Of a stretch of DNA of 64,000 nt, positions 10,829 through 64,000 are shown piece by piece. How positions within the stretch are numbered: the stretch's first letter is position 1; every line of letters starts with the position of its first letter. Below the pieces are notes generated by a model. The model did not search any database. It saw only the letters and a list, made by a program, of their open reading frames with translations, and was not told the origin of the DNA. Location of the stretch: IMG/VR virus record IMGVR_UViG_3300042197_001058, positions 19,597-83,596 of that record. One strand, written 5' to 3'. The DNA comes from a virus. Position numbers and translations under genes: made by a program.

Positions 10829-10925
10829 TCATTTTACGTGATACTGGGCTGAAATGTCGAAAAACCTCCCGGTGGTATAAACATAGTAAGCGACCCCTAT
10901 ATAAATTGGCCAGTTTATTAGCCAT
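10829..10925 (-). pseudogene. Frameshifted micropeptide downstream of subtilase
   Basis: An ATG overlaps the subtilase stop (TAATG). The frame opens MANKLANLYR, then runs on wrongly through element M. Removing one G from the run of four (10894-10897 on the plus strand) gives MANKLANLYR-VAYYVYTTGR-FFDISAQYHVK and a stop 8 nt before element M, the usual spacing for genes of the array. The ending resembles the micropeptide at 5529-5627. A true mutation or a homopolymer sequencing error are both possible. Confidence 0.35.
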
Positions 10926-17256: not shown

Positions 17257-17258
17257 TT

Positions 17259-25307: not shown

Positions 25308-26312
25308 ATGCCAGCAGTTACATACAATTTTCTATTAGAGCAAGGATCAGATTTTGAAATTTTTTTTCAATACAATGATGCTAATAATAATCCTATAAAT
25401 TTAAGTGATAAATGTGTTGTTTTGCAGTGGATTGATAGTGCAAAAACAAATAAACAAGTTTTTTCTACATCTGCTCTAGCCCAATATGATCTTCATGATT
25501 GGTCATTAACAGCAGATAATAGAGGTAGAATTAGATTTAGAATATCCGCTAATTTAACACAAAACTATAATTTTGATACTGCCGTTTACGATTTAGATAT
25601 TATTTCTCTAAATAATAAGCTTAGAAATGTTAGATTGTCTACTGGTACTATTACTTTAGTTAAAAGAAATCTGGCACTCGCATCCAGTTGTCCTGCTAGT
25701 TTAGATCCTAATATAAATCTTGTCACTTTAACACCAACTCCTTCAGATAATCAAGTCACACCTACTGTATCAACTACTCCAGAAAACTCTGATTTATGTT
25801 TACCAGACGACTGTATAGATTTAGATGTATACTCGGTAGTTCACACAGGATCTTCTTTGGTATTACCAGACTTATGTTTGGTTAGTGGTAGTATAAATAC
25901 CACAGACTCTAGGCCAATTGAAAATATAGAATTAGCTATAAATAAATTACAACATCAAAGTCCATCAGATTTAGTATTTGTTTTGGCTCCTCCATCAGGA
26001 GATAAAATACTGTTATCTGCTAATAGCAAAATTAAAAATTATAATAATAACTTTAGCTTTATGTTCTCAAATAAAGCAAATGATACAGACTATTTACATA
26101 ATACAACCAACGGAGGATTAATTAATATTTATGATAAAAAATCTGATATTAATTTTTCTAATGAAACATTATTGTCTAGCTTCGATCATTTATTTGGAGT
26201 GCCAGTAACAGGAACATGGAACTTGATTGTGAAAGATACTGATCCAATAGGATCTGGACTAATAGATTCTTGGAAATTAATTCTAACTCATTCACCAGCA
26301 GAAGACTTATGA
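25308..26312 (+). CDS. Neck/tail protein with C-terminal P-domain-like fold
   Basis: 334 residues. Residues 1-115 form a beta domain of the kind often found as a phage Ig-like/BppU module. A Thr/Pro-rich linker follows, then about 170-334 resembles the P (Homo B) domain of proprotein convertases: SDLVFVLAPPSGDKILL, FGVPVTGTWNLIVKD, GSGLIDSWKLILTH. P domains stabilise subtilases or bind surfaces; here it probably decorates the neck or serves adhesion. It overlaps the next gene at ATGA. Confidence 0.6.
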   Translation: MPAVTYNFLLEQGSDFEIFFQYNDANNNPINLSDKCVVLQWIDSAKTNKQVFSTSALAQYDLHDWSLTADNRGRIRFRISANLTQNYNFDTAVYDLDIISLNNKLRNVRLSTGTITLVKRNLALASSCPASLDPNINLVTLTPTPSDNQVTPTVSTTPENSDLCLPDDCIDLDVYSVVHTGSSLVLPDLCLVSGSINTTDSRPIENIELAINKLQHQSPSDLVFVLAPPSGDKILLSANSKIKNYNNNFSFMFSNKANDTDYLHNTTNGGLINIYDKKSDINFSNETLLSSFDHLFGVPVTGTWNLIVKDTDPIGSGLIDSWKLILTHSPAEDL

Positions 26313-50500: not shown

Positions 50501-50561
50501 GGGTAATCTAGACGCTGGCGTATTTGGTCCAGATTCATCTAAAATAATGGGAATGGCATAA
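35508..50561 (+). CDS. Giant tape measure protein with embedded enzyme-like domains
   Basis: 5017 residues in one ORF of 15 kb. Residues about 120-520 are TP901-type tape measure sequence. Then, in order: a TPGEF-type repeat at 540; a PD-(D/E)XK nuclease-like segment (Asp690, Glu700, Lys702); a P-loop GVAGSGKT (845-852); a nucleotidyltransferase-like segment with SFSPMTAGH (998-1006) and ISGTMVR (1129-1135); further DTVPAxLxPGEFVxN repeats at 1647, 2800, 3419 and 4809; hydrophobic segments near 1870-1960 and 4100-4150; a J-domain-like segment with HPD at 4712-4714. Long Ala/Gln/Glu helices join these parts. At about 0.15 nm per residue the tail could be some 750 nm if all of it spans the tube. 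Confidence 0.93.
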   Translation: MAQAFNLTAQLNLRGPSNVKKIVADIRRDLGTINANVQFRLDPTAVRNTSALNSALRNLNTTLGSTTTNATNAARAIRSFGSAINSVNIKNVPQQINATVASINKLNSTAANSGNSLAGATTEMQEFGKQAYLAVRRFAAFTGVTSVIFGVTNAITSGIQAFIEYDKQFVKLQQVTGQSAAGLKGLSDTITGLSTGLGVASSDITEVASTLAQAGLSARDTEKALKALALSSLTPSFDDMNQTVEGSIALMRQFGISAGDLEKALGSVNSVAAQFAVESSDIITAIQRTGGVFAAASKGVSEGTDALNEFISVFTSVRATTRESAETIATGLRTIFTRLQRGATINALKQFGVDLTDAEGKFVGAYKAVELLSSGLSKLDPRDLKFSQIVEELGGFRQIGKVIPLIQQFTTAQEALKVAQRGQGSLALDAAKAQESLANKITKVKEEFFALFREIGNSKGFQTMIRGALDLTSAMIKVADSIKGIIPVLGVLGAFKGASALTQFTAGFIGGFGKKQKVNSGGYIKKFARGGVVPGVGDGDTVPAMLEPGEFVIRKKAVQAIGMNRLHRMNKYAGGGKVSIKKLSESSKGGSFIKKAQRDNSDIIQYADEVFATEKRQKISLSEADKKYLFKQSLNPNRFKPGEKRFKGSIENLNKNVWGTAFENLMTKRLGKQWKTTSSNKDYGGSYPLDLYSSDGDFAEVKFTDRPVSYQHILSKKLRHKLLQPKNTWKFTQKRDAGPRAIDLGEALVYETDEVEKRKFIEQFKAGQLEAKRSRQKFAVGGSVQRRVGYIDYDVIANEANKNIVEAGMKSSGTTGPRLYADYLTQLAVRSRKANSLNKLSAVYGVAGSGKTTLARGQGTDKGKLRQTERFPILSPEDVSKATEVLILSSSVSKSKMDDYLSSVDRAYTLSSTTSAERERVRSQRSARDTTGVGLEGRKPGTTTGVSADTAVGEALLGDALGKKSVVLGRSTSGRLRRKKGNELVETIKKKIGFTWGSFSPMTAGHESIMDAAAAMGIPPEDFLYLVGSNEGIKSGDPSSYRTAVFDQDFRVMLAKAGAGTRGARVLPKPRDFEVPQAFDITDPGSGRRKVLLPQKGSKAFVADKTAEQTEKYKAAGYGVANIERTGGISGTMVRDLILSGQTGKLKEVLSPGVYGIILKNLSKLQNRSNVLPEIISESQKTEAVSLQDIDKEIDKLGIKRIDTKRAQTDPEYATQVEALQELRAKKQKIKSIGSFRPYEILARLAQAEPDKYALDFTDVQRKNLGGFIQKLSVGGFAEVASKGRSELLGLASKYGIAKPVNIYDILGKRASSKTPLSSLESATKQSFIQSIVDAMSSEQQSAAVDSAIAQNRKIAVVGISGERSSSEVKTVGATDKETGASVRAVPATLQTGSLPPGVAKRVQALIRNNVERLVNDVGRQIAKAAGTSIQPNRKTLRNIAGKDLEDIAGSIFEKGLGLASGNYDPSSSSIDFLGGLSSPVASLLGVDPGVMTDVTNMASMDNAKRKVTKGQFDRGRLEARKKLGRSQFAEGGLVQRFKLGGSVYDLQKGSGLSNPEFNELVKFANTNDFSMDEFKTYLAQSIQRKKNKAGLRMNPASLLSAITPETPRATANQLALANMLKGPVDAKFNPKYDNSIKYAVGGSVEDTVPALLTPGEFVINKKAAQRIGSARLHTLNRADKIQGFNKGGVVQRFAKGGTPEKMAEAVGSFDPVSAKTEKALEAAVEQLMDKIIKDIIAINPSVGFDTAYAQAKDQVTQADFTTMRAAETGDQKAANSVADAQRKQALAIAKQIRSIDNSISMQEALSAAERQVADAWGGLYRRTKTAEQSSSLLSRAMDNTRAAMNKAQMAMSKLDQSGFSRGMRGVVGGNVGFYGSMAVGMLAGQGESFFGKKDANINNASRVAAFEAGTSTVATGLATASSLTAIPGVGPFIAAMVLGVTAIKAWTDGVKAATEAALEFALRESNRKAENSAEALGKALDNLSKDVNNVDLQNLVKTRLQENIKDNSEVFNDQFADTRNKVIERTKSERTLMEWAGESSFIAPLLGYGDTTFKPESINSFSLTGKDYETMAKDMAPKYQEANRAAMMSIERALRSGVALSGQEGKDLATAPEYANERMAIIGSDRQALEKILPLMAREEELRKSGNEAAADEVKANREAIISEMIKNNASIQAAKKSIELAKAMEEANRAGRQLALSFNQLYDTIGQSINRIQFESKARQQAAQSSVNALRGNASIEQLDSKAINVLENPLAYKNDPKAFREAADSAANMLGGKQGQMLRGAAIASVELPDKMTNAIAQELKGNAGLSPEEAAKIAITKGTEEIKSLNLPPEITNQLIKQLEGNIKSSQQQLSKDMEESGGNPQEALDKFIESIRDTSKSLGEIGARAVSESAALLKERQRAFNQFIENVQEAAKAAKLAENYFKSADKIRYRGKMDLREAQTGVGESFEEAKARFDQEVGDLTGGITDPTAIRQNIQNLEQQRQQQQEDLKKANDAGDVDEAKKLTTNLTATNTALNNNREALDKLADSAELAQKALDEVKNIKGLQQGREDFVNKLLTGTPEEMENLNKAMIRLQRNLSGGLNNPDNQRDARKAFNETLRRTGSVREASKAGNTVLANQRKETLGLMQDPGFRAMLTLNMKNQGMSDQQIDQRFRQQEATLMRQMAVESGMSRNPMVQQAIAAKLDPNADPAMKRAAEQFLQTVGLQAKATEEQGRLELANAQRLLTTATDDLNLSIKNLTDTINANMGLDGKVANAKQNAAGQEMVALNFGLPRPSQPMRASKGALVDFSPRGSDTVPAMLTPGEFVVNARSTAQHLPLLKSINSGSNIVPTIMRKGGLVYLSRGGWLANSLRKDKTLDQDQTFFDQRVTEANQAYLTGGGKEALKQQLDAAESAAGNADREYSFLSSDATTPEQAANDYVMNQDRIEWLNMSPEERQAKVAPFMDQARSAFNTKQTWRYGADPDNLGAGALSQEQIDKNIQDRREQSIKASNQAYSLRKQYEEREAKGMDYRTPSQQLEADKLSVRRSLEEDRQIATGEKTLTPEDMEVRRAASGRADGIATEEQVDSYIRQRRDQAEAAAKAADTEMGARRLNNTRELVDQRFNFAFNQGMGKTYTTRDGATYIADPTGMFRDKSGKKIDGSIRAEQIYKDPSDINKYESSAYNLEAMRFGNEGPYKNIGYSERRTTRPISIDGIPGAEEVTTTSAMNLSLSPASPIARNEAAINAHMEEARPIVRAMNTPMTDRDRRRLASSMRSQGASNEQINQTLATIPVMRGPRNMAEVGMYREGVARGMTIDEIAFERQQAYLNRYNPKIREGLENELLSSGTLREPSQRQRASILEIIQQIQSVLDSGQNTSSYSDAQLQNALRILMSIVAAKAERNRIWGIDSLKSDTVYASTGKLIDFAPKGTDTVPAMLTPGEFVVNARSTAQHLPLLKAINSGSDAMVSKTMSKGGVVYLASGGQPKKEEQVANNGVSPADQQELVRLQNERIAADQEQMFITNGAMVDTSARQWTEEQFGSKWSSMTEEQQNAETQKNLPRFQQLDQDYTARRDAYVAEKGKADEATGLWSSDRFTSEHRLSFFRQERDRSQAAYAAASQAEYDQQTKMREASKDEKSSTTMPPTADGSRPATMPQYAPTSSSESATALSRTSIASRDAARRSLANIPQAQRTPDQQNRYLQLKYEDDLAKGRISSSITADQFVEQEKQKQYARDDKRFDVLSKKDPDSLSQADSDFLFDYETQQRDRRKAVIAEVKQREEAFGKTLSDAERAAENNTKTLDRAKTTAEAYKTSVQYGIDQKNLSKIEEQRQTAQFENFLSTNMEAGIKDTAALGKFWAEQQEGVVKQEEKDRLALKYEKDASEFIKKNTDAKTGEFNEEFKQQRQAQKDEAKKRDTTVAALINEDFGQQLGAAQKDINDKVFTFVDPVDSRLSEDNITQIKNQAAAYRQAADNLAGIKNVDSTKTIEEYRNQAAKLEERAASFTSSTKTQAALDQTKGSIVRSNESLASTVRQNTLNAAMADKSIDKYASDKDAAAKAEAQAAAAQQAAEQKAAQAKADAEKRQAEQAAAQQAKVAQEAKAKQDSLWINSSNPLTAGLGYLGGLGQATGEMAYGAANVVAGAATVAASPVIGYFAGNSAEEVARGEKLAAQTRAIQEKQAAMGVLGPQGSDQNAALAQAQASDYKGESSTAAAASVGLNAMAQGAYTAVEAAQAVAGQGPIMTGDKTWLHQGDDERVQQAGPYGGATRFFQNTGYVASQLAPAVAGLTNPAPGAGILEKSARAFSALDNLATSPGTVTSFAGKALGSIGNRVTGGRLSSFTAPVSDMLSSGLGFIRGKAAKGVKSMADTDFGKDMIGTFNAVKDSVFLRGPARADIDVAYGNIGSIDDYFDSARKSIAGGKLSPEAAMKYHRKEILEKAMKMREADMAKAKMYSQLTGGDPTKVSEVLRSQKGIRGLGTKEDPFTVPPRSGQVVSDSSTKAQLDSMRQPGGVNYNPPTGTVGDPFFATGKVDSVASSTNPTRSSAKTSSDDLVDPLQANAARARAKEAAESAETQKKATRAAESAKTAKKEAEQRAESIAKQKSLDEQRIKAEQLKQQQASEAKQRAEAATKQKQIEEAQLKQAQENKLKQQQEASAAKAKEQAQINASSSSPKQENRTRESLISQLSEKQATIYDIVGAKAGQSISPDDVRTLQRQGSKWLHPDLPSNRELDPSLQTKLNKIIELASDPAALERYNLGLKMGYTHDDLMEAWIRGTKFSKKTLKRRRPDINPSPAAKMNKGGIVYANNGALIAARQGTDTVPAMLTPGEFVVNRQAAQQHMPVLNAINNGYYNRGGIVQYLANGGLVSPPKYYQEGGQVTNTGSANSGVSTDIGNAINAAMAGLSNIVGQISQVKEVASMFNEAIGNFGSIGQTVVDGMTGASSNLAQVGTELNQFAPEVKFTGRVETDHRFNGLEAANNVLNTLGPTMAENTKNQMNNAFQRVNKGVGNLDAGVFGPDSSKIMGMA

Positions 50562-53500
50562 TGTCTAATAAAATTACAAAAATATTTGATAATATTGGTT
50601 TTACATTTATAACTAAAAATAATAGTTTTACTAAACACGCTATTATTAGCGGATTTAATTATTTATCTCATAATCATATTGGATATTATATCCCTTATTT
50701 AGCCCGTAATGTTCAAAATCAACAAATAGAGACCGGAGTTGGGGAAGTCAAATTAAATAATGAAGGAGACATAGTTGTCTCTAGATTAAATATAGTTTAT
50801 AGCTCCAATAATAATAGTCCTATTAATTTTGATAATACATCAGACAAAAATGAGTTTTACTTATTTGCTAATCAACAAATTTTTGACGCCTCTATACATA
50901 ATACCGTTGTATTAGATAAAGATTATAAAGCTAACTCAGTTAAAGCCCTCTACCTAGCAGACTGCACCAATCAAGACATTAATCTGTCATTACCTTCTGC
51001 TTCTATAGCATCTAATATTGTAGTAGAATGTAAAGTTATAGGATCGGGAAATCATCATCTATTAGTTAGAGATTCTAATAATAGTGTTGTAGCAAATTTG
51101 ACGCTTAATGAATATATAAAGATTGCTAGTGATGGCAAACAATGGATAATTGTAGATCGTCAAACAGAATCGAATATTGTAGTTGGAACACAGTCGTTAT
51201 TTGATGGCTCTGAAACTGTGTTGCAAACCATGAGCAGCCCTCAAGGAGACGATCAATCTCTACAATATAAAAGTGGTAATGATTTATTAGGATCAGAAGC
51301 TTATTGGGATTCTTTAAATAGTCAAATGCTTATTGGCAGTGATAGTATTGCTGATGCAAATGTGATACTTCCCTCCTCTGGTAATACGGTATTTAATAAT
51401 AGCAAAAGCAATGGAGATTTTATAGTTTATGGTAGTGGCAACAGAAATCTCTTTTTTGCCTACGATGGCAGACTAGGCATTAACATACCTTCTGGTGCTA
51501 GACCATCAACTATTTTTCACGTTGTAAATAATATATGCCAAGAAGGTTTTAGACTAGAAAATCGTAATAGTTGTCATCCAGCAAATATGACACTATATCA
51601 CAAGCCGTCAACTACTATATTACCTAATAGTGTTGTAGGACAAATAAATTTAGCGGCTAAAGATGGCAATAATAATAAAATAGACTATGTATCTTTAGAA
51701 GCTAGGGCCGTAGATCTAAATAACCCAAAGGGCGCTTTTGATATAAATATTAGATCTAATAATACCGGTATTAATATACTAGCTGCCGACCCTAGTTCTG
51801 TTAAAGTGGGATATAGTGGTATTAATTTATCTATTAATAGCAATACTAATGTTGTACAACTTAAAAATGCGTCTAATAGCATTAATTTAGGAACTAGTTC
51901 AACAACAATAAATAGTAATACTATTTCTCTTCAAGGATCTAATATTTCTATTGGTAGTGGTCAGTCTAATACTAATATACCAGGATCATTAATTGCTAAC
52001 TCAATATCATCATCTAATATTCAGTCTACCACAATGGTAGTGCCTAATATAGCACCAAGCAGCATATTAGTTGTAGATAGTGACAATCAGATTGTAGGCA
52101 GTAATACCTTATCAGCAAATAGTTTGGGCACTATCTCATTACCAATTCCCGCTAATAGATTCTTAACTACAACTACAAATGGCGCTATTACAGGTATCTA
52201 TAATTTAGATGATTATTTTTTAACCGAAGAAGACATTATATGGAATAAATATAATCCTAGATCAGCATCTGTCTGTTTGAGACAAATAACGTTTGATAAT
52301 CCGGTATCATCTACCGAATTCGTAGTGGGAGATCAAGTTGTTATTACTTCATATGATGGTAATTTTTATCGTAGAATAGTAGGAATAGATTCCTCATCTG
52401 ATCAAATTACAGGTTTATTACTAGATCAAATTGTTACTCAAACTACTGTGGCAGAAGTTACTGTCTTGTCTATTACGCAAGCTGGTTTTTTGTCAATAAG
52501 TAAAAAGGTTGATAATGGAATTATTTCCGATGCCAGTGAAAATATTCTTAGCATAAGACCATTAACTAATACTGTTTTTAATACTAGACGAAAAGATATT
52601 GATTTTACTATATATGGTATTGATCCTCAGCCAGCCCTAAATATTAAAGCAAATATTGGAAGATTAAGTTTTCAGTCAGGAGAATACGCCCCTTTTGCAA
52701 CCACAGAATCTGATGTTTTTCCAATTATCATTAATTCTAGCGGCATAGGACTATCCAACACATTCTCTTCTGCTAATTTTAACTATAACTATAATAATAC
52801 TAATTTATTTAGTGGTATAGTTTCTGATGTAGGATCAAATGGTAGACCTTCTTATTACGGTACTTATGACCAAAATGGTAATGCTTCTGAGTGGGTAGAT
52901 AAGCCTTCCGTAATAGAATCTAGAGACATAGAAGAGTTTGTTTGTGGAGGCTCATACCTAACTCCTCTGGCTACTGGCGGTTCTGCTCCGATTGGACCTA
53001 GTGGTCTTAAACATATAGAATCGCTGGTCCGCGGTTCGGGATATAATTATGTAGGTTTTAGAATCGCTTCTTTATTCAATATCACGGACTCTGCCAACAT
53101 TATCAGCACTACTGGTCTAGGATTATCTTTTGTTAGTGTTGCTGATCCTCAGAACAGATCCGATGACTCTACAACATATTTGAAAGTTAATAATTCATAT
53201 TCTCCAGTTATTATTAATGATTTAGGGGTAGTTCCTAACACTTATAGAATAGGCCGCAATGAAATCACTAATAATCAATATTGTATATTCTTAAATGCTG
53301 TAGCAAAAATTAATGACAGAGGACTATACGATAGTAGAATGGGTTCTGATTCTCAGGGAGGTATACTCAGAATAACGGACGATAATAATGAGTATGTGTA
53401 TACTACGAAACCAAATATGAGCAATAAGCCAGTATTATTTGTGAATTATATTAGTTGTATTAGATTCATTAACTGGTTGCATAATGGAGCTAATTTAAAT

Positions 53501-54130
53501 TTATTAGAAGACAATATAGATTATAATCTTGACATTGGTGCATATAATGTATTATATATTGGAGATTTATCATATAATGTAGTTAAGTCTTCATATAGAA
53601 AATATTGGTTACCTAACTTAAACGAATGGCATAAAGCCGCTTATTATTCTCCGGTAGATACTTTATCTACCAGAGGAACATCTGCGGTTACAGTAAAAAG
53701 AAACGAGCCGTTTTTAGTAGCATCTGGAACAGAAAATACTACAAAACAACCCGCTTCTTTATTTGCCAACTTAAGTGTTAGTGGATGGTTATACGTTGAT
53801 CATATCATAGTTGGTGACGGTACTATTAGATCTCCAAGAAAATTTACAAACATAACAGCACCAACAGAAGAGGATACGTCTGGTCAGGTTGCTCCTAATG
53901 GTACTCTTGTGGTACCAAGAACCAATTTACAACCACAATGGGACAATCCTAACGCTATTGTTTATGAAGATCATGTAAGTTGCGTATCAGATGGTTGCTC
54001 ATTTAATGCTAAACCATTAAGATTAGATTCAGATGTTGCTGCTTTATGTACCGATCAAGATTTAATAGATAGTAATAATACTCCTTGGTGGTGTGATAAT
54101 CCTAACAATGGTCCAACGTGGTTTAATTAA
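50561..54130 (+). CDS. Tail-fibre protein with permuted formylglycine-enzyme/C-type-lectin domain
   Basis: 1189 residues. Residues 1-700 are Ser/Asn-rich beta repeats typical of fibres. About 760-840 match the C-terminal half of the FGE-sulfatase fold (YYGTYDQNGNASEW, FVCGGSY, VGFRIAS). About 880-1030 match its N-terminal half (YRIGRNEITNNQY, FINWLHNGANL, YWLPNLNEWHKAAYYS). The order is reversed from normal. Such folds display variable ligand-binding surfaces in phage fibres. The start overlaps the tape measure stop (TAATG). Confidence 0.75.
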   Translation: MSNKITKIFDNIGFTFITKNNSFTKHAIISGFNYLSHNHIGYYIPYLARNVQNQQIETGVGEVKLNNEGDIVVSRLNIVYSSNNNSPINFDNTSDKNEFYLFANQQIFDASIHNTVVLDKDYKANSVKALYLADCTNQDINLSLPSASIASNIVVECKVIGSGNHHLLVRDSNNSVVANLTLNEYIKIASDGKQWIIVDRQTESNIVVGTQSLFDGSETVLQTMSSPQGDDQSLQYKSGNDLLGSEAYWDSLNSQMLIGSDSIADANVILPSSGNTVFNNSKSNGDFIVYGSGNRNLFFAYDGRLGINIPSGARPSTIFHVVNNICQEGFRLENRNSCHPANMTLYHKPSTTILPNSVVGQINLAAKDGNNNKIDYVSLEARAVDLNNPKGAFDINIRSNNTGINILAADPSSVKVGYSGINLSINSNTNVVQLKNASNSINLGTSSTTINSNTISLQGSNISIGSGQSNTNIPGSLIANSISSSNIQSTTMVVPNIAPSSILVVDSDNQIVGSNTLSANSLGTISLPIPANRFLTTTTNGAITGIYNLDDYFLTEEDIIWNKYNPRSASVCLRQITFDNPVSSTEFVVGDQVVITSYDGNFYRRIVGIDSSSDQITGLLLDQIVTQTTVAEVTVLSITQAGFLSISKKVDNGIISDASENILSIRPLTNTVFNTRRKDIDFTIYGIDPQPALNIKANIGRLSFQSGEYAPFATTESDVFPIIINSSGIGLSNTFSSANFNYNYNNTNLFSGIVSDVGSNGRPSYYGTYDQNGNASEWVDKPSVIESRDIEEFVCGGSYLTPLATGGSAPIGPSGLKHIESLVRGSGYNYVGFRIASLFNITDSANIISTTGLGLSFVSVADPQNRSDDSTTYLKVNNSYSPVIINDLGVVPNTYRIGRNEITNNQYCIFLNAVAKINDRGLYDSRMGSDSQGGILRITDDNNEYVYTTKPNMSNKPVLFVNYISCIRFINWLHNGANLNLLEDNIDYNLDIGAYNVLYIGDLSYNVVKSSYRKYWLPNLNEWHKAAYYSPVDTLSTRGTSAVTVKRNEPFLVASGTENTTKQPASLFANLSVSGWLYVDHIIVGDGTIRSPRKFTNITAPTEEDTSGQVAPNGTLVVPRTNLQPQWDNPNAIVYEDHVSCVSDGCSFNAKPLRLDSDVAALCTDQDLIDSNNTPWWCDNPNNGPTWFN

Positions 54131-54142
54131 TAGGAAATAATT

Positions 54143-56683
54143 ATGAGTAACGAATGGTATACAATACTTGGTCCCGAAGATTGGGACGGCGTTAATATCA
54201 ATACCGGCAACAAAAAAGTTGATGGTAAATATTTTAATATTTTAGGAGATAAAAACGTACAACTATCTGCTAGTGGCATTATGTGGCTAGTGGGAGGTTC
54301 TGGTATTCGTTTAATTAGCACTGGTCCAGTAGATGCTAGTGGTTTTCGTGCGCATGATGCTCATGCTATTCGTTATCATAAGATAGATTATAGTGGAAAT
54401 ATTGTGCCTATTTACCCTGGTCCAACAGGCGCCGTTTTATACAAGGCGGACGATGAGAATGCGGCGGGCATACCGGGAGATTTGTTAGTATATAATACTG
54501 GCATTAATAAATTAACTATGCCTTCGCAGCCTTTTGGAGCACTAGGTATACCGTCTGGAGATGTTAAGGCATTATCAGTATTCACTCCCGTGCAATTTAT
54601 ACCACAAACAGTAGTAGGTTCAGGAGAATCCGCAACGACGATTCCTGCCAAAGTAGAAATAGATGGTAATGCTATTTTTAAACAAGATGTGCAAATATAT
54701 CCTAATTTAGCAGGATACAAAGATAGCATCTTAACTCATATGGGTAAAGATGAGCCAGCGAAATGGGTGCCCGCTCCGTATCTCAAGGCAGACGGAGTTT
54801 TATGGAATCGATATCCAAAAAGACCAGTAAAGTTTGATGAAGATAAAAATACAATGATCTTTTATCTAAGTAAGCCAGACTGGGCTCAAGATTGGGTCGA
54901 TGCTCCAACTGTTGAAAAATTAGATATCGAAATGGGCGATGGTAAAGATACAATTGAAATTTTAAGAGATGACGATAGATTATCTGGTTATGTTAAGTTT
55001 GCTTCACAGATCAGATATATTGTAGATGACACTAATCCTGACATCACTACTCCTATTACTTTTTTGTATGAAGAGGTACAATTTAAAGACCCTTATGATC
55101 CACTAGGAGAAGAAGCCCCACTGCAAGACGGACTAGCTGTTAAATTATGTCCTCCAGAGCCTATTAATGCCACATGGGCCGGAGGCAATAATACTGGATC
55201 TCCTATTGGTTCTGGTAATGGTTATGCTTGGTCTGTAAATCGGGGAGGATACTTGGATATGCAGCTTGGTAAAGATGCTAAGTATAGATTTAATTGCGTA
55301 GATCCAGACGATCCGGCCACCATCCCAGCCAATCCGGAACAAAGTCCGGTATTTAAGTTTAAACCTAGTACTATGAACACTATTAGTATTAGACCAAATG
55401 TTAATACATCATTTAATAAGTTAGCAGAAAATATTGATTTTATTATATATGGAGAAAGAAAAACCCAATTTAATAACTATGAAGAAAGCTTATTTGATCT
55501 AGACGATTCCAGCACCCCAACCGGTTTAATTCCTGCTTTCAGAGTACACGCCAATATTCCAAATGCTGTGAGCGGTAATATTAGTTCTGGTGTTATATTT
55601 AGCAAATATATAGATAGATCCAGGGTTACTCCAACGGGTTGGGATTTCGATTATAATGCTAAGATTAGTATTAATACTAATGATCCTTATATTATTGATA
55701 CTATACCTTCCGGTACTGGTGTGGTTAATAATGTGACGGCTACGGGATATATTAGTTATTATGCAGATGTGACTATTGGTAGTGTGTTATATAGTAATAA
55801 TATTATTACGGAAGGGTTGTATCTTAGACCCAAACCATTAGAGAATAATCAAGGAGAGTACATTGCTAATGCTCTATTAACTTTAGACAGATCTGGAAAG
55901 ATTATTTCGAGAATACCAAAAACCAATGCGACTGCTCCAGGCAAACCATTAAATGTAAGATTAGATCCAGGCCACCAAAATGGTATAGGTAATGGAGAAG
56001 CCTCAATCGTCTGGTCGGCACCAGTTTCTGATGGCGGAGAAAAAGTCATCGCTTATCTAATACAATTTTCTATTAATAACGGAGAGTCTTGGACTGATAT
56101 ACCCAATAATTTATATGGAGTAAACTCAGCCTCCCCCACTACTCTATCGGCCACCATTACAGGATTATCACAGTTAGTTCAGTATAGGTTCAGAGTTGCT
56201 GCGCAAAATAAGGTTGGAGTTGGTAATTATTCTGATTCTTCTAATACAATAGTGGTTGGAAGTTCTGTACCTAAAGCTCCTCCAAATTTTGTGGCTAGTA
56301 GAGCTTTCGATGAAACAGAATTTTCTAATATTCAGTTAACATGGGATCAGCCACAAGCTGGATCTGATGGAGTGATATTAGGATATACTATTGAAGAATC
56401 TATTGATAATGGGAATACTTGGTATTGGTATAATGAACCAAGCGCATTGATAACAGAAGTCGGAGAACTAATCACAGGATCAGTCTCTGCTATAGACTAT
56501 TATTATAGAATCTCAGCATGGAATAATAATGGTCAAGGAGCATATGCTTATCTAAAGAGTGCTAGTAATCTAATTATAGAAATTGATCCAGAAGAAGAGA
56601 AAAAAGAAGAAGATAAACGCAATGATGTATTAAGCAATTGGGACTTCGGATCTGTATTATTCACAGGAGTGTGTCAACTATGA
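54143..56683 (+). CDS. Tail protein with two fibronectin type III domains
   Basis: 846 residues. The N-terminal 600 are beta-rich fibre or baseplate sequence. Residues about 610-705 (APGKPLNVRL, SIVWSAPVSDGGEKVIAYLI, QYRFRVAAQNKVG) and 715-815 (APPNFVAS, LTWDQPQAGSDGVILGYTIE, YYYRISAWNNNGQG) are FN3 domains. It probably forms the tail tip or a surface-binding fibre. GGAAA before the ATG; the ATGA overlap leads to the next gene. Confidence 0.75.
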   Translation: MSNEWYTILGPEDWDGVNINTGNKKVDGKYFNILGDKNVQLSASGIMWLVGGSGIRLISTGPVDASGFRAHDAHAIRYHKIDYSGNIVPIYPGPTGAVLYKADDENAAGIPGDLLVYNTGINKLTMPSQPFGALGIPSGDVKALSVFTPVQFIPQTVVGSGESATTIPAKVEIDGNAIFKQDVQIYPNLAGYKDSILTHMGKDEPAKWVPAPYLKADGVLWNRYPKRPVKFDEDKNTMIFYLSKPDWAQDWVDAPTVEKLDIEMGDGKDTIEILRDDDRLSGYVKFASQIRYIVDDTNPDITTPITFLYEEVQFKDPYDPLGEEAPLQDGLAVKLCPPEPINATWAGGNNTGSPIGSGNGYAWSVNRGGYLDMQLGKDAKYRFNCVDPDDPATIPANPEQSPVFKFKPSTMNTISIRPNVNTSFNKLAENIDFIIYGERKTQFNNYEESLFDLDDSSTPTGLIPAFRVHANIPNAVSGNISSGVIFSKYIDRSRVTPTGWDFDYNAKISINTNDPYIIDTIPSGTGVVNNVTATGYISYYADVTIGSVLYSNNIITEGLYLRPKPLENNQGEYIANALLTLDRSGKIISRIPKTNATAPGKPLNVRLDPGHQNGIGNGEASIVWSAPVSDGGEKVIAYLIQFSINNGESWTDIPNNLYGVNSASPTTLSATITGLSQLVQYRFRVAAQNKVGVGNYSDSSNTIVVGSSVPKAPPNFVASRAFDETEFSNIQLTWDQPQAGSDGVILGYTIEESIDNGNTWYWYNEPSALITEVGELITGSVSAIDYYYRISAWNNNGQGAYAYLKSASNLIIEIDPEEEKKEEDKRNDVLSNWDFGSVLFTGVCQL

Positions 56684-57255
56684 AATTATTATTAAAGAGA
56701 GATTCAACCAGTACTGGCTTTCCTAGTCCAGATCAGCTAGACGTCGGAGAATTGGTTATGAATAGTGTAACAGGCAAACTTTATACTAAGATCGTTGACG
56801 GTTCTATTATCGAATTTATTGGTCAAAAAATCTGTTTTGATCCATTACCGACTATCGATTTATACTATGAAAATAATCTGATTACGAATGATAATGTCGA
56901 TAATTTTTGTTGTTCCGGAGCAATCCTGGTATTCGTGGTGTCTGCTTTAAAAGTAGACCCTCATGAATATACATTTGAACTAACAGAACTAACTAATAAT
57001 AGCAATGCTTCGGATATTAATGTTCAAACTCCACAATATGTGGATTACGCTATGACAATCCCCCCAAATGCTAATGGAGGGAACTCTTCTCCGCAAACCA
57101 GAACAGTACGTAAAGCTACTGTTCCTATTAATTTAAGCATAGCCAATAATCAAAATGATATTAGTATATTTAAGTTTGCTGTATCTTCTAAAACAGATAA
57201 TAAGAAATTATTAGAAAAAATTATTATTTTAAAATGCCTATCTACTAATGTATAA
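56680..57255 (+). CDS. Tail-fibre protein with N-terminal attachment module (191 aa)
   Basis: The start at 56680 overlaps the upstream stop (ATGA) and has AGGAG upstream; the longer frame to 56638 is rejected. It begins MKLLLKRDSTSTGFPSPDQL, followed by DVGELVMNSVTGKLYTKIVD. This GELxxNxxxGKLYTK module is widespread in phage fibres at the point where they join the baseplate. The rest is a beta-type body. Confidence 0.7.
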   Translation: MKLLLKRDSTSTGFPSPDQLDVGELVMNSVTGKLYTKIVDGSIIEFIGQKICFDPLPTIDLYYENNLITNDNVDNFCCSGAILVFVVSALKVDPHEYTFELTELTNNSNASDINVQTPQYVDYAMTIPPNANGGNSSPQTRTVRKATVPINLSIANNQNDISIFKFAVSSKTDNKKLLEKIIILKCLSTNV

Positions 57256-57269
57256 TTTATGGTAAATTT

Positions 57270-58175
57270 ATGATTAGAACTATCAAATATAGCTTAGAAG
57301 AAGGAGAAAAGGGTTTCGTTTTACCTTTTACTCTTCCATCAGGAGGCATAGCTCCAAAAGATCAATATGTATTAACATTTGATGCTCCTGTATCCTTACC
57401 CACAGATCCACCGACTACAGTTTCATTCGAACCATCTAATGGTTCTTATGTTATTTTTGGTAGACAAAATTTAGCCCCAAAAACTTTTGTAAAGATTAAG
57501 TCTTTGCATAGAGCCGAGACCAAAACATTAATCAGATTAACTATAAAAGATGTATTAAATACAATTTTATATCGCGATTATACAATGATTATTTGTGTGC
57601 CTCAGTCAGTGACAGAACTATCGGCTACTTTATTACCAATAAATAGTACTAATAATTTGGGACCCAAAGGAGGTTCTATTGTTAGATTAAATACTATCAC
57701 TAACGGAAGTCTATCAGGCAATACTGCACAATTAGATATAGGTATGATCGTTAAAGGTCCCGGCATACCAACAAATGATATATATTATATTACTACTATT
57801 ATTAATGCTACAGATGTTGAATTAAATAAGTCTATAACTATACCTAACAATATTAGTAGTACAGGCACATTCGAATTTATTAGACAAACAGGATGTGTGG
57901 ATCCTAATACTTTATTAAAAAGATCCGTAATATCAACTTATACTGTATTAGATCAATCTAATAATTGGACATATATAGCTAATAATAAATTAATAACTAG
58001 ATTTGTGCCTTTTGATATTGACCAAAATTCCGATACTGTTATATTATTGCCAATTAAAAATTCCTCATTATTATTGGCTTCTGATGATCCTATGCCTATT
58101 CCAGACGTTAGCATTATTAAATTGGGAGGAAGAGTAATGCGCGATTCTATTTGTGCTTCGCAAGCAATATCATAA
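57270..58175 (+). CDS. Hypothetical tail-fibre-region protein (301 aa)
   Basis: Begins MIRTIKYSLEEGEKGFVLPF; three beta-sandwich-like blocks, the middle one with MIVKGPGIPTNDIYYITTII, a segment seen in other phage beta-solenoid or fibre proteins. No enzyme motif. A minor tail component by position. Confidence 0.55.
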   Translation: MIRTIKYSLEEGEKGFVLPFTLPSGGIAPKDQYVLTFDAPVSLPTDPPTTVSFEPSNGSYVIFGRQNLAPKTFVKIKSLHRAETKTLIRLTIKDVLNTILYRDYTMIICVPQSVTELSATLLPINSTNNLGPKGGSIVRLNTITNGSLSGNTAQLDIGMIVKGPGIPTNDIYYITTIINATDVELNKSITIPNNISSTGTFEFIRQTGCVDPNTLLKRSVISTYTVLDQSNNWTYIANNKLITRFVPFDIDQNSDTVILLPIKNSSLLLASDDPMPIPDVSIIKLGGRVMRDSICASQAIS

Positions 58176-58251: not shown

Positions 58252-59451
58252 ATGATTATAAATAGCCAATTTTTTATCACATATTATACTGGCAAAGAGC
58301 CGTTAAAACTAAAAGAAGTTCCCGTTTCATTACAGCCAGGATCTGCTCAGAGAGTAGAATATGACCGATTTATTCAGTCTATTGACACTATATATGGTAG
58401 TCAAAAATTAGACGGCACAATTCCTAAGTTTTGGACTCAAAGAATTCAAATTGTGGATTCTCTTGGGAATGCACAATATTATTATGTTCCTCATCCTGAT
58501 TCTGATTTAACTCAATTAGATTCTAAATCAGCATACTATTTTATAGTTAGAGAAGATAGTGCTATCCCTCTGCGTATTCCTGCCATTGGTGGATTATTAC
58601 TAGGATTCACCGACGCCAGAGTATTACCTGTTGTTGCTCCTAGCAGTGTTATGGGAACAGGATTAACTTCTCAGTATAAGTATGCATTTGCTCCCAAAAT
58701 TGAAAATCTTCAGCCATATGAAGAATATAAGTACGAGTTTAAAACAGTATCTTCCAACTGGCCCGTCAGTATAAATAACATATCTGGAATAATCAAACCA
58801 GCATCATCTACAACAACGTTAGATGCGGTAATAGGATTTTGTCCTACTACTGGCAATTGCGATACTAATGTTTTGCCGTATCAATTACCTCCCGTATGCT
58901 CTTTGTCCAGTTCTAATGAAAAATCTATAACTATGCAATTGTCAATTTCTCCGGTTTCATATGAAGGCCCAGAAGTACTTAGTAATCAGTTTACCATAGA
59001 GTGTAAAGATTGTTTACCTAAAGCAGCTGTATCTATTGTGGGACCAGAAATCACAGAGATCAAAGAGTCAGAAGATGACAATGCAGACTTGCCTAATTAT
59101 CCTTTCTCTTTAAGCTTCTCTAATTTAGAGATAGAAAAAACATATAACTATACTATCAATGTAGTAAAAGCAGATTGGCCTGTGGTTTTTGCTGCTCCTA
59201 CTAGTGGCACTATCAAGCTTAGATCATCTACTGATATTCCCTTTATCGGAGGAAAGATAGTTTTTTGTCCTACTACAGGATTATGTCCACCGAACCAAAA
59301 CGGCGTACCAAATTATTCTGTGCCTAATTATCCTAAGTTTTTAACTGGCTCAGCTATCTATAGTGTTATTTTACAGGCTTCATTGACCAAAACTGATTGC
59401 GATTCTGAAACAATTTACAGTAAACCCATTAACATTCGTTATATTAACTAA
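58252..59451 (+). CDS. Tail protein with NWP/CxDC repeats, 2 copies
   Basis: 399 residues. The first 150 are unique. Two copies follow of a repeat of about 125 residues: YKYEFKTVSSNWPVSI, GFCPTTGNC, ECKDCLPK; then YNYTINVVKADWPVVF, FCPTTGLCPP. The second copy ends without the CxDC part. The next two genes consist of the same repeat. Probably surface fibre domains; the four conserved Cys per repeat could bind metal or form disulfides. Confidence 0.7.
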   Translation: MIINSQFFITYYTGKEPLKLKEVPVSLQPGSAQRVEYDRFIQSIDTIYGSQKLDGTIPKFWTQRIQIVDSLGNAQYYYVPHPDSDLTQLDSKSAYYFIVREDSAIPLRIPAIGGLLLGFTDARVLPVVAPSSVMGTGLTSQYKYAFAPKIENLQPYEEYKYEFKTVSSNWPVSINNISGIIKPASSTTTLDAVIGFCPTTGNCDTNVLPYQLPPVCSLSSSNEKSITMQLSISPVSYEGPEVLSNQFTIECKDCLPKAAVSIVGPEITEIKESEDDNADLPNYPFSLSFSNLEIEKTYNYTINVVKADWPVVFAAPTSGTIKLRSSTDIPFIGGKIVFCPTTGLCPPNQNGVPNYSVPNYPKFLTGSAIYSVILQASLTKTDCDSETIYSKPINIRYIN

Positions 59452-59462
59452 TTAGGAATAAC

Positions 59463-60863
59463 ATGAAACCATCAGGTGTAAAACTAGAATACAAAGGTCT
59501 TATCAGAAGATTAGACTATAGCTATGAAATAGAGAGCGTAGGAGGCAATTGGCCTGTTGTGGTTGTTCCGTCTTCTGGCTCATTCGTAGCTTCATCTAAA
59601 ACAGGATCTATTGATGCTCAGGTATTATTTTGTTCCGATGCTTCTGTATGTCCAGACTCTAATCCTGATGTTATGAACTATAATATAGACTATAGTTCTA
59701 TGATTAATAATAATAATTTGTTTACTATAATTAGAGCTAAGATTTTTGAAAAAGGAACTAGTGGATCTGATGCTGTGTTTTCTAAAGAAAAATTGGTAGA
59801 TTGCCAAGATTGTATAACTCAGCCTATTGTAACTATCCCATCATTTTTATCATTAAATTCTGGTAAAACATTTTCTAATGCAACTCCATCAAGTACTACT
59901 CCTAAGCCTAGTGGTTCCGGCTTGGGTGCTTTATCATTGGTTTCAGAGACTGTTACAGATTTTGATACAGACAAGTTGACTAGTCAGTTCGATATCGAAA
60001 TCTCTAATCTCAAATCTAATACTTGGAGAAGCAGTAAATATAATTATACTATTACTAATGATATGAGTAATTGGCCAGTTTCAGTATTTCCAGTGAGCGG
60101 AACAATAGTAGCCAACACAGATAATATTACTATCCCAACGAAGTTACGATTTTGTCCAAATCCTATAGATCCTTCGGATTTGGATAATCTAGATTTCAGT
60201 ATTTTAAGTGCTCCTAGTGGCGGACCAGAATATGCTTTTACTAATTGTGATCCATCAAAAGATATGGATATGATAGCTATTTTAAGAGTTAAACTAGAAC
60301 CTCACTCATCATTCGAGCCTACGTATTATAGTAATCAAATGATTGTTAGATGCGATGATTGTGTTGTTAGACCTACCATTTCATTGTATACGTCACCTAA
60401 CGTTGTTCAATCGACTACCAATAATAGTATGATTGCTCCAAACACAACAAAGTCGTTTGCTACTAACCAAAAAATACCTCTACAAATTAATCTTAATAAT
60501 TTACCTAAAAATATAGCATATACTTATGAGTTAAGAGCACTTAGGTCTGATTGGCCTTTTATTGTTGTGCCAGATAAAGATATACTATATGTATCAGAAA
60601 ATGATCCAACGAGCTTGTCTTATGCTAGTTTAGACGGCATGTTTTGTGTACATTCCGGAATTTGTCCTAGCGGCCAAAAAGGTGTACTACCATATGTTAT
60701 GGTAGATACTTTATATAGACAATTTGACGAGATATATAAGCCTTCTATTATATTACAAGCAGTAGTTAAAGATATAGATTCTAATGTTGAGTACGTTTCT
60801 AATACATTGGCTTTAGAATGTACGGACTGTGTGCAACCCTATAATCCTGTTATTATAAAATAA
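59463..60863 (+). CDS. Tail protein with NWP/CxDC repeats, 3 copies
   Basis: 466 residues made of three repeats with NWPVVVVPSSGSF, NWPVSVFPVSGTI and DWPFIVVPDKDIL; each has FC- and CxDC elements (CQDCITQ, CDDCVVR, CTDCVQP). A Ser/Thr/Pro-rich spacer lies between copies 1 and 2. It starts 11 nt after the previous gene. Same inference as its neighbours. Confidence 0.7.
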   Translation: MKPSGVKLEYKGLIRRLDYSYEIESVGGNWPVVVVPSSGSFVASSKTGSIDAQVLFCSDASVCPDSNPDVMNYNIDYSSMINNNNLFTIIRAKIFEKGTSGSDAVFSKEKLVDCQDCITQPIVTIPSFLSLNSGKTFSNATPSSTTPKPSGSGLGALSLVSETVTDFDTDKLTSQFDIEISNLKSNTWRSSKYNYTITNDMSNWPVSVFPVSGTIVANTDNITIPTKLRFCPNPIDPSDLDNLDFSILSAPSGGPEYAFTNCDPSKDMDMIAILRVKLEPHSSFEPTYYSNQMIVRCDDCVVRPTISLYTSPNVVQSTTNNSMIAPNTTKSFATNQKIPLQINLNNLPKNIAYTYELRALRSDWPFIVVPDKDILYVSENDPTSLSYASLDGMFCVHSGICPSGQKGVLPYVMVDTLYRQFDEIYKPSIILQAVVKDIDSNVEYVSNTLALECTDCVQPYNPVIIK

Positions 60864-60889
60864 TAGTTCCCAAACCAGAGAAAATTAAT

Positions 60890-63583
60890 ATGTCAAACGT
60901 TAAACCTATCGATGTTAGAGTAAGTGGATTAAAACCATATGAGCAATACTCCTTTTCTTTTGCTAATAAAGGAGGGAATTGGCCTATTAGAGTATCCCCG
61001 CTGTCTGGTGAATTTTTTGTCACTAATAAAGATACCATATACGACATCAAAACTTTTGCCTATTTTTGTCCAGCTACAGGCTATTGTCCTCCCACTGATC
61101 CAACAGTATTTTTTAATACTCCTAATACGGACATTTCGGTTCCGGGATTGGATGTGGGTCCAGAGAGTCTGTACTCTGTCATGGGCTTGTCTGTCACAGA
61201 AAAATCCACAGGTAAAGTTGTATTTACCTATCCTTGTTCAGTAGAGTGCGATGATTGTTTACCGAAACTAGGAGCATCATCTGATAATGTTATTCTAGAT
61301 GATGTATCTGGAAATAGTACTACATTATCTACTACGGTTTCTGGTTTAATTCCTAATCAACTATATAGATATACTTTTACTGGTCTAGATGCTAATTGGC
61401 CCGTGAAAATTTTACCAATGTCTGGATATATTCAAACACCGAATAGTGATTATACTATTAATGCTATTGTATCTTTTTGTCCTTCTATAGATGGATGCTC
61501 TGACTCTGTAACATTACCATATAGAACTCTAGAGAATTGTGCTAATAAAGAAGAACTATACTCAGTATTACAATTAACAGTGGAGACTGTTGGAGGCAAC
61601 AGTTTTCAAACATCAACAAAAAGCAATGTTTCTGTTGTATGTAAAGATTGTATTAAAAAACCATCAGCATCTATACCAACAATATTAGAATTGAATGATA
61701 CTAATAAAGTTTCATTTAATACAGAACTAAGAGGATTGGTTCCCGGAGCATCGTATTCTTATGTATTTAGTAGTATTGATTCTAATTGGCCAGTCACTGT
61801 ATACCCAATTAGTGGCATAGTTTCTTCAGCATCAGCCAATGTAGATATTCCTACCAAGCTTATGTTTTGTAGAGCTACAGGCTTGTGTGCTAATGATGAT
61901 ACCCTATCTTATGCATTAGACAATGAATGTTTAGATAAATTAGTGCGTACTAAATTACAGATTACACAACTAGATTGTGATGACCCTGTGTCTTTTAGTA
62001 GTAATGAGCTTATGGTGGTATGTAACGATTGTATACCCGAACTCACAGCCAACATTCCTGCAACACAAAAGCTAGATTCGAATACTAAAAATACTTTCAA
62101 TTTTTCTGCAAATGTATCTAATTTAGTTGTCGGTTCAACATACAACTATGAATTCACTAGTACTGATGCTAATTGGCCTCTCATATTATATCCTGCGAAC
62201 GGTACTTTTGTTGCTAAATCTTCCGATATCACTATTCCTTTTACGGCTACTTTTTGTAGAAGCACGGGCGTTTGTCCATCATCTAATGAGAATGTTTTGG
62301 AATATATTATAGATAATAATTGCTTAGATAAAATTGTAAGAAGTAAATTAACGATTACTCAAATTGGTTGTGAAGATACTGTTTCCGTTGATAGTAATGA
62401 ATTATATTTAGTATGTGATGATTGTATACCAAAAGCACAAGCAGTATTACCTTCCTTGGTTGCTTTGGATAAGACATCCAAAAATATATTGAATTTTACA
62501 GCAAATCTGTCCAATCTTGTGGCGGGTACCACATATAACTATAATTTTAGAGGCATAGAAGCTAATTGGCCAGCCGCTATTTATCCTGTTAGTGGATCTT
62601 TTGTAGCTGATCGTACAGAAGAGAGTATTCCAGCATCGCTAACTTTCTGTGTATCTACCGGCGTATGTCCTCCAACAGATGATAAAGTTCTCACCAATAA
62701 CCTAGATGCATCATGCTATGCTGCTATGGTTGATAGCGATAAACATACAAGATTAAAATTAGAAATTCAACCCACAGATTGTGATAATGCTACATATAGT
62801 AGTAATGAAATGATGGTTATGTGTGTTGATTGTTTGCCCAAAATTAGTATCAATCATGGATCATTAGGAGAAACATTGTCTGGGCCCGGCAATAATAACT
62901 ATCAGCTTACTACTACTGTTAGTAATTTAATTCCTGGTCAAGAGTATACATATACTATTACCGGATTAGACGGCAATTGGCCTATGGTAGTATCTAAGCA
63001 GTCAGGAGAGTTCTTGGCTGTTACTTCTAATAAATTAGTACAAACTGATCTTAGTTTCTGTTTTCCTAGCGGATCTTGTGCTATAGATAGTAGAGATGTT
63101 TATCTAAATTATAGAAGCAATAGCTTATATAAAAATTCAGATAAAAAATTCTTTAAGCTTAATATGAGTATAGAACCTAAGAATTGTGATGCTCCACCAA
63201 CTATCAGTGAAGATTTTTCTGTAGTTTGTAATAATTGTTTACCAGAAACTAATTTGTCTGTGGCAATATCTGGATCTCCTATATTAACCTTACCACTTAA
63301 TTGCTGTTCTGGTACGAGACTAATTTCTGCTAATGTCACTGGTGCTGTTCCTGGAGAATCTCATAGTTATAACTGGATATCAGCATCAAATAATATAGTA
63401 TTATCTCCTAGTAGTGGTACTGTACTATTAAATAAGAATGGAGCTGGTTCTATTATGGCTCTTATGTCTACTAGCTTAACCAATAGAGAACAAGCTATTT
63501 TAGAATGTAGAGTAACAAATAGCGTTTCTAATGCTCAGGCTACTAATTTTGTAGTGGTACGATGCGGACCAGAATGTAATTAA
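60890..63583 (+). CDS. Tail protein with NWP/CxDC repeats, 6-7 copies
   Basis: 897 residues, almost entirely repeats of about 128 residues: motif NWPxxxxPxSGxF, then FCxxxGxCPP, then VxCxDCLPK. Six full copies and a partial seventh that ends CGPECN. Copy-to-copy divergence is wide, which argues for old duplication. Not similar to any family I recognise. Likely an extended adhesive fibre. Confidence 0.7.
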   Translation: MSNVKPIDVRVSGLKPYEQYSFSFANKGGNWPIRVSPLSGEFFVTNKDTIYDIKTFAYFCPATGYCPPTDPTVFFNTPNTDISVPGLDVGPESLYSVMGLSVTEKSTGKVVFTYPCSVECDDCLPKLGASSDNVILDDVSGNSTTLSTTVSGLIPNQLYRYTFTGLDANWPVKILPMSGYIQTPNSDYTINAIVSFCPSIDGCSDSVTLPYRTLENCANKEELYSVLQLTVETVGGNSFQTSTKSNVSVVCKDCIKKPSASIPTILELNDTNKVSFNTELRGLVPGASYSYVFSSIDSNWPVTVYPISGIVSSASANVDIPTKLMFCRATGLCANDDTLSYALDNECLDKLVRTKLQITQLDCDDPVSFSSNELMVVCNDCIPELTANIPATQKLDSNTKNTFNFSANVSNLVVGSTYNYEFTSTDANWPLILYPANGTFVAKSSDITIPFTATFCRSTGVCPSSNENVLEYIIDNNCLDKIVRSKLTITQIGCEDTVSVDSNELYLVCDDCIPKAQAVLPSLVALDKTSKNILNFTANLSNLVAGTTYNYNFRGIEANWPAAIYPVSGSFVADRTEESIPASLTFCVSTGVCPPTDDKVLTNNLDASCYAAMVDSDKHTRLKLEIQPTDCDNATYSSNEMMVMCVDCLPKISINHGSLGETLSGPGNNNYQLTTTVSNLIPGQEYTYTITGLDGNWPMVVSKQSGEFLAVTSNKLVQTDLSFCFPSGSCAIDSRDVYLNYRSNSLYKNSDKKFFKLNMSIEPKNCDAPPTISEDFSVVCNNCLPETNLSVAISGSPILTLPLNCCSGTRLISANVTGAVPGESHSYNWISASNNIVLSPSSGTVLLNKNGAGSIMALMSTSLTNREQAILECRVTNSVSNAQATNFVVVRCGPECN

Positions 63584-63611: not shown

Positions 63612-64000
63612 ATGCCATGCGATGTATTATTAAAAATGAATATGGACGGAACAGATGGTTCCTCTATATTTTCAGACCAGTCTGCTTATAATAGGACCAT
63701 ATCAGTAGCTGGAAACTCATTTCCTACTATCAATAGTACTACTAAAAAATCTGGTTCCGGTAGTGCTTATTTTACTAGCGGTTATTCTGTTATTAGAATA
63801 AATAATTTGTCTACTATATCTAGTACTGAAGATTTTACTATAGAATTTTGGATTTATTTTACTAATTTAACATTTAATAATAATAATACTATACTAGGCA
63901 ATTGGGCATATTCTGGTTATTATGGTGGAGATTGGTCGTTAAGTTGTTCTCTGAATTCTGCAAATTTTAATATATCCTTTACAACAAACAATGGTTCTAA
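63612..64000 (+). CDS. LamG-like tail protein, cut by window edge
   Basis: Begins MPCDVLLKMNMDGTDGSSIF. The sequence DFTIEFWIYF and NTILGNWAYSGYYGG has the strand pattern of laminin-G/concanavalin-type lectin domains, common sugar-binding modules at the tips of phage fibres. AGAGGA precedes the ATG. Open to the right edge; only the first 129 codons are visible. Confidence 0.7.
   Translation, partial: MPCDVLLKMNMDGTDGSSIFSDQSAYNRTISVAGNSFPTINSTTKKSGSGSAYFTSGYSVIRINNLSTISSTEDFTIEFWIYFTNLTFNNNNTILGNWAYSGYYGGDWSLSCSLNSANFNISFTTNNGS

Follow-up and report, generated by a model that had tools for sequence, protein, structure and literature searches.

A repeat unit with two cysteine pairs in three adjacent genes of a phage tail module

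Introduction

What does a phage do with three adjacent genes that are built from copies of one and the same domain? The question is raised by the window studied here, a stretch of 64,000 nucleotides that forms the final 64 kb of the 83,596-base virus record IMGVR_UViG_3300042197_001058. The window carries terminase, portal and capsid-type genes, and its tail module continues to the contig end. Close to that end lie three open reading frames, genes A, B and C, exactly where a first-pass annotation, made from the DNA letters, had placed three tail genes sharing an undescribed repeat. Genes A, B and C hold two, three and six units, respectively, each of about 130 residues. The repeat is real, its unit has a predicted immunoglobulin (Ig)-like fold, and the three proteins probably form a stalk of such beads in the distal part of the tail. 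The genes and their units are as follows.

58252–59451, + strand: gene A, with a conserved N-terminal domain (residues 1–123) followed by units A1 and A2
58621–59022, + strand: unit A1
59017–59448, + strand: unit A2, with DWP and without CxxC, at the C terminus of gene A
59463–60863, + strand: gene B, three units
59463–59816, + strand: unit B1
59925–60368, + strand: unit B2, without the second Cys of CX5C
60414–60836, + strand: unit B3, with DWP
60890–63583, + strand: gene C, six units and then a plain terminal domain
60890–61264, + strand: unit C1
61259–61657, + strand: unit C2
61652–62041, + strand: unit C3
62036–62434, + strand: unit C4, without a counterpart in the close relative G001; the unit used for modelling
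62429–62842, + strand: unit C5
62837–63247, + strand: unit C6
63239–63580, + strand: terminal domain of gene C, which aligns loosely and lacks NWP, CX5C, CxxC and a Pfam match

The repeat unit

The units as cut are 118–148 residues long. Six full units and a loosely aligned seventh domain in gene C make the proposed copy numbers of 2, 3 and 6–7 a fair count. When the 11 units are aligned, six columns are invariant (L30, Y36, W47, P48, F73 and C74, numbered as in unit C4) and five more are nearly so (Y38, G56, C80, C127 and C130). That the repeat is real, and that chance is no explanation for it, is confirmed. The core DNA pattern occurs six times in the window and not once in any of 100 dinucleotide-preserving shuffles. 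The repeat also goes beyond chance because a profile of the 11 units detects units in other virus records, with expectation values (E) down to 1e-45.

This profile finds the unit in 38 further IMG/VR virus records, or 39 with the window's own. The stretches collected from them gave 350 profile hits, 334 of them full-length. Split and partial hits inflate such counts (gene B of G001 gives four hits for three units), so full-length units are used for counting. At an 80% identity limit the non-redundant set comprises 169 units. After removal of near-identical loci, 24 loci remain, two of them in record G016. The motifs NWPV and PxSG had been among the proposed fixed points of the unit. NWP holds in nine of the 11 window units, the other two having DWP. 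PxSG is a tendency only: of the 169 units, 124 have its P, 146 its S and 167 its G.

Predicted fold

The proposed beta-sandwich finds support in the AlphaFold model of unit C4, a confident Ig-like sandwich of nine strands built from the 11-row alignment (predicted local distance difference test, pLDDT, 90.5; predicted template modelling score, pTM, 0.82). Among the matches found by Foldseek and ranked by VIA-align, PapD-type chaperones and an ASH domain stand near the top. The best is the Caf1M chaperone (Z 9.3, root-mean-square deviation (rmsd) 3.1, 104 residues aligned); the ASH/PapD-like domain of CEP192 is also among them (6fvi; Z 8.7, rmsd 2.9, 105 aligned; in a second comparison Z 8.8, rmsd 2.4, 105 aligned). 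By this model the unit would belong to the PapD/ASH/MSP-like fold class over most of the domain, matches within 1 Z being tied and other Ig-like domains, including complement and CTLA-4, tying too. Domains of this class, such as CEP192 domain 7 and the PapD-family chaperones, are the nearest to the unit by Z. They differ from it in their setting, the phage units being tandem and Cys-paired. The PDB sequence searches gave no significant relation to them, and one weak Pfam match, to Ig_CFAP65_4th, hints at a relation in sequence.

In the model of the whole gene A protein (pLDDT 84.2, pTM 0.52), the N-terminal domain has one helix and several strands; after it come two sandwiches, with no defined orientation to each other. 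Ig matches filled the list of the fold search with this model, which thus barely probed the fold of the N-terminal domain.

Relation to known families

The claim that the family is undescribed largely stands for single units, while whole gene C passes two Pfam cut-offs on paper. No single unit passes a Pfam cut-off (0 of 10), and the best E among 50 units scanned is 0.0027. For the same 50 units the best E with Pur_ac_phosph_N (PF16656) is 0.0032, and fn3 (PF00041) is absent at E 0.1. The BACON_2 model matches one of the 50 at E 0.031, with no other BACON model at E 0.1, and Ig_CFAP65_4th gives a weak match in one (E 0.0073). Units match no PHROG family below E 0.009 and no PDB sequence below E 0.049, and the three whole genes have no match in NCBIfam. 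Published descriptions of the repeat were not found in titles and abstract openings, where motifs are not searchable by meaning, so that absence is unproven.

A Pfam match would, by the first-pass annotation's own account, overturn the claim of a new family, and whole gene C scores 54.6 bits with Pur_ac_phosph_N against a cut-off of 30 and 34.3 bits with fn3 against 25. Gene C passes because one stretch of about 30 residues is summed over six copies. This stretch, with its Y-x-Y, is what the unit has in common with the two families, from which it differs in that single units stay below the cut-offs. The double pass, together with the real fn3 domains encoded three genes upstream of A, could mean that the units are ordinary phage FN3 domains that have diverged, set apart only by sequence drift. 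This is improbable, as only about 30 residues per unit match and the match is gone for single units. The stretch lies near the start of the unit and corresponds to positions 47–71 of 84 in fn3, so that the strand order is out of register, and among fold matches it is PapD/ASH-like domains that rank first.

Kinship of the unit with neighbouring proteins was considered for three of them. Profile comparison by hhalign is not significant for p300 (probability 0.2%), p190 (4%, and again 4% with a larger profile) or a small downstream protein (1%, then 5%). In a hidden Markov model search (profile u2) the p190 of L179 scores E 3.6e-5 at Z=1000, and other p190s score weaker; p190 may hold one diverged unit.

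The cysteine pairs

The four cysteines had been described as conserved in nearly every copy, which is what the window units show: all 11 have the first Cys of CX5C, 10 have the second (all but B2) and 10 have CxxC (all but A2). Conservation extends to the homologues, with the first Cys (C1) in 158, the second (C2) in 152 and CxxC in 154 of the 169 units. Of 151 units, 136 have exactly five residues between C1 and C2. The accompanying idea of one zinc or disulfide centre is not supported: the four residues do not behave as one set, and CX5C and CxxC act as separate pairs. Loss of C1 goes with loss of C2 (both present, one alone, the other alone, neither: 151, 7, 1, 10; p 5e-11), and so are C3 and C4 (153, 1, 2, 13; p 2e-16), where p values are descriptive because the sequences counted are related. 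Losses of pair 1 and pair 2 are independent of each other (139, 12, 15, 3; p 0.20). Where one pair is missing the other is mostly retained, in 15 of 18 units and in 12 of 15. Three units seemed to lack both pairs, but two of them were mis-scored at an FCCPSGSC stretch, so that a single double loss remains.

On the unit tree the CX5C state changes at least 11 times and the CxxC state at least eight times, and therefore the Cys pattern is not a single inherited loss. A paired-contrast test on the tree, of low power, finds the other pair mostly unchanged when one is lost. The labels on the tree were assigned by a somewhat different criterion, which counts 16 and 15 losses, and the tree includes the Cys columns. 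No Cys coupling between neighbouring units was seen. Pairing between units, of CxxC with the CX5C of the next unit, was considered and likewise not seen.

A single tetrathiolate site, binding zinc or iron and pinning strand E to strand G, is quite unlikely. By the strand order of the model the four cysteines would lie near the same C-terminal pole, and a zinc-ribbon-type Pfam family matches weakly at CxxC (E 0.011); the independence of the two pairs and the lack of coupling with a neighbouring unit speak against it. The pattern of losses makes two local links, probably disulfides, the better reading. The cysteines are lost pairwise, as in disulfide-linked extracellular Ig domains. The Cys content is 2.0% in A, 2.6% in B and 4.2% in C, compared with 0% in the portal, the capsid candidate and the tape measure protein.

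A further, very doubtful possibility is that CxxC, lying beside the linker, joins neighbouring chains. The product would be a covalently laddered cable of adjustable length that hardens when lysis exposes the fibre to oxygen. That CX5C would then only stabilise each bead is equally speculative. The CPPC of the antibody hinge, which links chains, is an analogue of such a CxxC; we know of no redox-set virion fibre of this kind in print.

The tail context

The genes that precede and follow A, B and C in the tail module are listed below.

35508–50561, + strand: tape measure gene, 5017 residues, matching PHROG tape measure families (best E 1e-27); it anchors the tail module
50561–54130, + strand: 1189-residue tail protein with an FGE-sulfatase (C-type-lectin-like) domain (Pfam PF03781, E 9.4e-9)
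54143–56683, + strand: 846-residue fn3-domain protein (Pfam fn3, E 1.2e-11), a conserved upstream neighbour with orthologues in the same place in relatives
56689–57255, + strand: p190, about 190 residues, with a conserved N-terminal KRD..GELV.N..TGKLY and then a domain that is weakly unit-like in some relatives
57270–58175, + strand: p300, about 300 residues, a conserved neighbour of no known family
63612–64000, + strand: first part of the following gene, truncated where the contig ends; the fragment has no Pfam match

Relatives share the arrangement fn3 protein, p190, p300, A, B, C. The tape measure gene upstream, this conserved order and the adjoining adhesin genes support the assignment of A, B and C as tail genes; their location in the virion we infer. 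It is very unlikely that they are capsid decorations, or secreted or host-directed proteins that merely lie within the tail operon. Ig-like domains such as Hoc are common on phage heads too, but the genes that follow the tape measure gene keep their order and the starts of A, B and C have no obvious signal peptide, as judged by eye rather than by a predictor.

The genes after C vary among relatives. They encode FGE (C-type-lectin-like), DUF285 and FG-GAP domains, with a BNR-like domain below cut-off; in plain terms, these are lectin-like, leucine-rich-like or propeller domains. A single protein of 1878 residues in one relative carries FGE and DUF285 together with two stretches that match the unit weakly (E 8e-8 and 7e-11), and a gene downstream of this fusion starts with an Mtd_N tail-fibre domain.

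FGE-sulfatase domains recur in tail genes, at 50561–54130 of the window and in the genes after C in L116, L119 and L202. A diversity-generating retroelement (DGR) would need a reverse transcriptase, but PF00078 was found in 0 of 16 records, which may be incomplete; the controls gave a signal in 3 of 14. The FGE genes are therefore not obviously a diversity-generating system. DUF285, a Mycoplasma-type family, occurs as repeats in phage tail genes at L202:9477-13229 (E 1.9e-66) and L121:7005-12641 (E 8.8e-43).

Across 17 records the open frames of the tape measure genes range from 3,173 to 7,577 codons. The longest, in record G098 (L218:735-19901 and L219:1-4965), stays open in one frame for about 7,577 codons. 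Tail length follows a rule of about 1.5 Å per tape measure residue, by which the G098 frame, if translated whole, would predict a tail of more than 1 micrometre. The tape measure protein of Thermus phage P23-45 has 5,002 residues, as given in PMC10770324.

Distribution and evolution

Terminase relatives in IMG/VR number 279. Of 30 longer records picked by this relationship, five have units by the 11-unit profile; of 50 mostly short terminase-bearing contigs none does, as expected of contigs that rarely reach the tail genes. In records picked by a DNA pattern scan the profile confirms units in 18 of 18 and 15 of 17, the short records G106 and G107 having a pattern match without a profile match. 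Record G096 has a unit match at 174634–175014. Two unit-less records that were read further keep p190, and neither p300 nor the N-terminal domain of gene A was found in the stretches read. A search of viral contigs for the whole gene C protein gave no match with exact peptide patterns that were too specific. A DNA pattern scan of cell genome contigs returned 0, which is weak evidence since the pattern was stricter than the one used for viral contigs.

The number of full-length units per locus ranges from 1 to 17 over the 24 non-redundant loci. Gene C has six units here and five in G001, a relative with a terminase 94% identical. The units of the window and G001 pair one to one except for C4, whose best match is 46%. 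Identity is 86–97% for A1, A2, B1, C1 and C6 and 55–77% for the others, which makes the end units better conserved than the inner ones. Over the non-redundant loci, 11 of 82 inner units have their nearest neighbour within their own locus, compared with 1 of 57 first units and 2 of 50 last units, a pattern consistent with duplication of inner units. The ratio of non-synonymous to synonymous substitution rates (dN/dS) is 0.04 for A, 0.17 for B and 0.09 for C, at a high synonymous rate (dS 0.7–1.7), so that all three genes are under purifying selection. Selection on fibre length or adhesive surface had been proposed from the expansion. Copy number does change by whole units, for which a selective cause would be conjecture; the dN/dS values speak of purifying selection only. 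Bead number shows no correlation by eye with tape measure length.

Proposed role of the units

Context, copy number and conservation are best explained if A, B and C form a distal-tail stalk, at the tail tip or as a side fibre, made of Ig-like beads, adjustable in length and carrying receptor-binding heads. This reading is probable, with the stalk role and the Cys chemistry inferred from those data. The N-terminal domain of gene A probably docks the bead string onto the tail, and genes B and C would add beads after the two units of gene A. The string is likely to be flexible because gene A has a pLDDT of 84.2 yet a pTM of only 0.52. End units would keep their identity through specific contacts, while inner units would be gained, lost and duplicated, shifting the length of the shaft one bead at a time. 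In each bead the CX5C link would lie in the loop after strand E, and the CxxC link would sit where the last strand ends, next to the linker to the following bead. Both would be local disulfides, formed once lysis has released the protein from the reducing cytoplasm. The variable downstream genes would supply the receptor-binding heads.

The beads may instead be the adhesive parts themselves, many weak sugar-binding Ig-like domains of the BACON or Hoc type whose number sets avidity rather than length. Tandem BACON repeats with phage tail proteins have been proposed as host binders, according to PMC6949934, and Ig-like adhesins of gut phages mediate adherence, according to PMC13370021. The weak match of one unit in 50 to the viral BACON_2 model (E 0.03) points the same way. 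Adhesive beads are nevertheless unlikely: the adhesin-like domains belong to neighbouring genes, and the conserved Y, NWP, SG and Cys appear to be core or turn residues with no obvious ligand pocket.

Several observations weigh against the stalk. With a larger profile, 8 of 11 records have no detectable unit. Six of these eight (G010, G012, G014, G019, G020 and G022) are 122–238 kb long and contain terminase and tape measure genes; a tail of this type can therefore do without the array. Among 50,697 phage records, tblastn matches neither gene A nor gene C, and no cultured relative was found. High Z values are common for Ig folds and are no pointer to function. The low pTM of gene A possibly stems from a shallow alignment (17 rows) and not from flexibility. 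The Cys count is odd in 82 of 169 extended units, and therefore not every Cys is in a disulfide within its unit. Placement of the three proteins in the virion is putative and derives from gene context.

Other genes of the window

A subtilase protease gene lies at 10925–12190 (− strand), and a gene of the structural region at 25308–26312 (+ strand) contains a proprotein-convertase P domain; the two are possibly a pair acting on virion proteins. GDP-mannose 4,6-dehydratase-like genes, one partial at 12585–13262 (− strand) and one full at 15524–16510 (+ strand), suggest sugar modification encoded by the phage. The terminase (17253–19268) is 24–25% identical to those of Bacillus Slash-type phages and Microcystis phage MaeS, and nothing in the phage collection matches the portal. 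The phage group thus seems to have no cultured members in that collection. The terminase search also matched two metagenome bins, one labelled Alphaproteobacteria and the other Flavobacteriales, and therefore no host is claimed.

Comparison with known systems and significance

Ig-like, PKD and FN3 domains on phages, as in Hoc and tail proteins, resemble the unit as beta-sandwich add-ons on virion proteins. Fraser et al. reportedly treated Ig-like add-on domains on phages as a general phenomenon in 2006. Such add-ons are mostly single or few per protein, whereas here whole genes are made of one private unit. A closer parallel is BACON, which tail-associated proteins of crAss-like phages hold in tandem, as stated in PMC6949934. 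The same source describes further likenesses, namely tandem beta-sandwiches in tail-associated proteins, duplication of single domains and clades specific to position. The present unit differs in having no significant BACON match, in its two Cys pairs and NWP, and in belonging to another, long-tailed phage group; by the one strict pattern scan it also has no copies in cell genomes. Through BACON, phage tails with Ig-like or similar domains in tandem are therefore already known, and it is the Cys-paired unit itself that appears to be undescribed.

The unit adds a domain family that is absent from Pfam and PHROGs at the level of the unit and from NCBIfam at the level of whole genes. The family belongs to a large uncultivated group of long-tailed phages known from metagenomes. 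Differences of whole beads between close relatives would provide a natural series relating stalk length and bead number in host binding, and two independent Cys pairs in each bead would make the use of disulfides versus metal in phage fibres simple to test.

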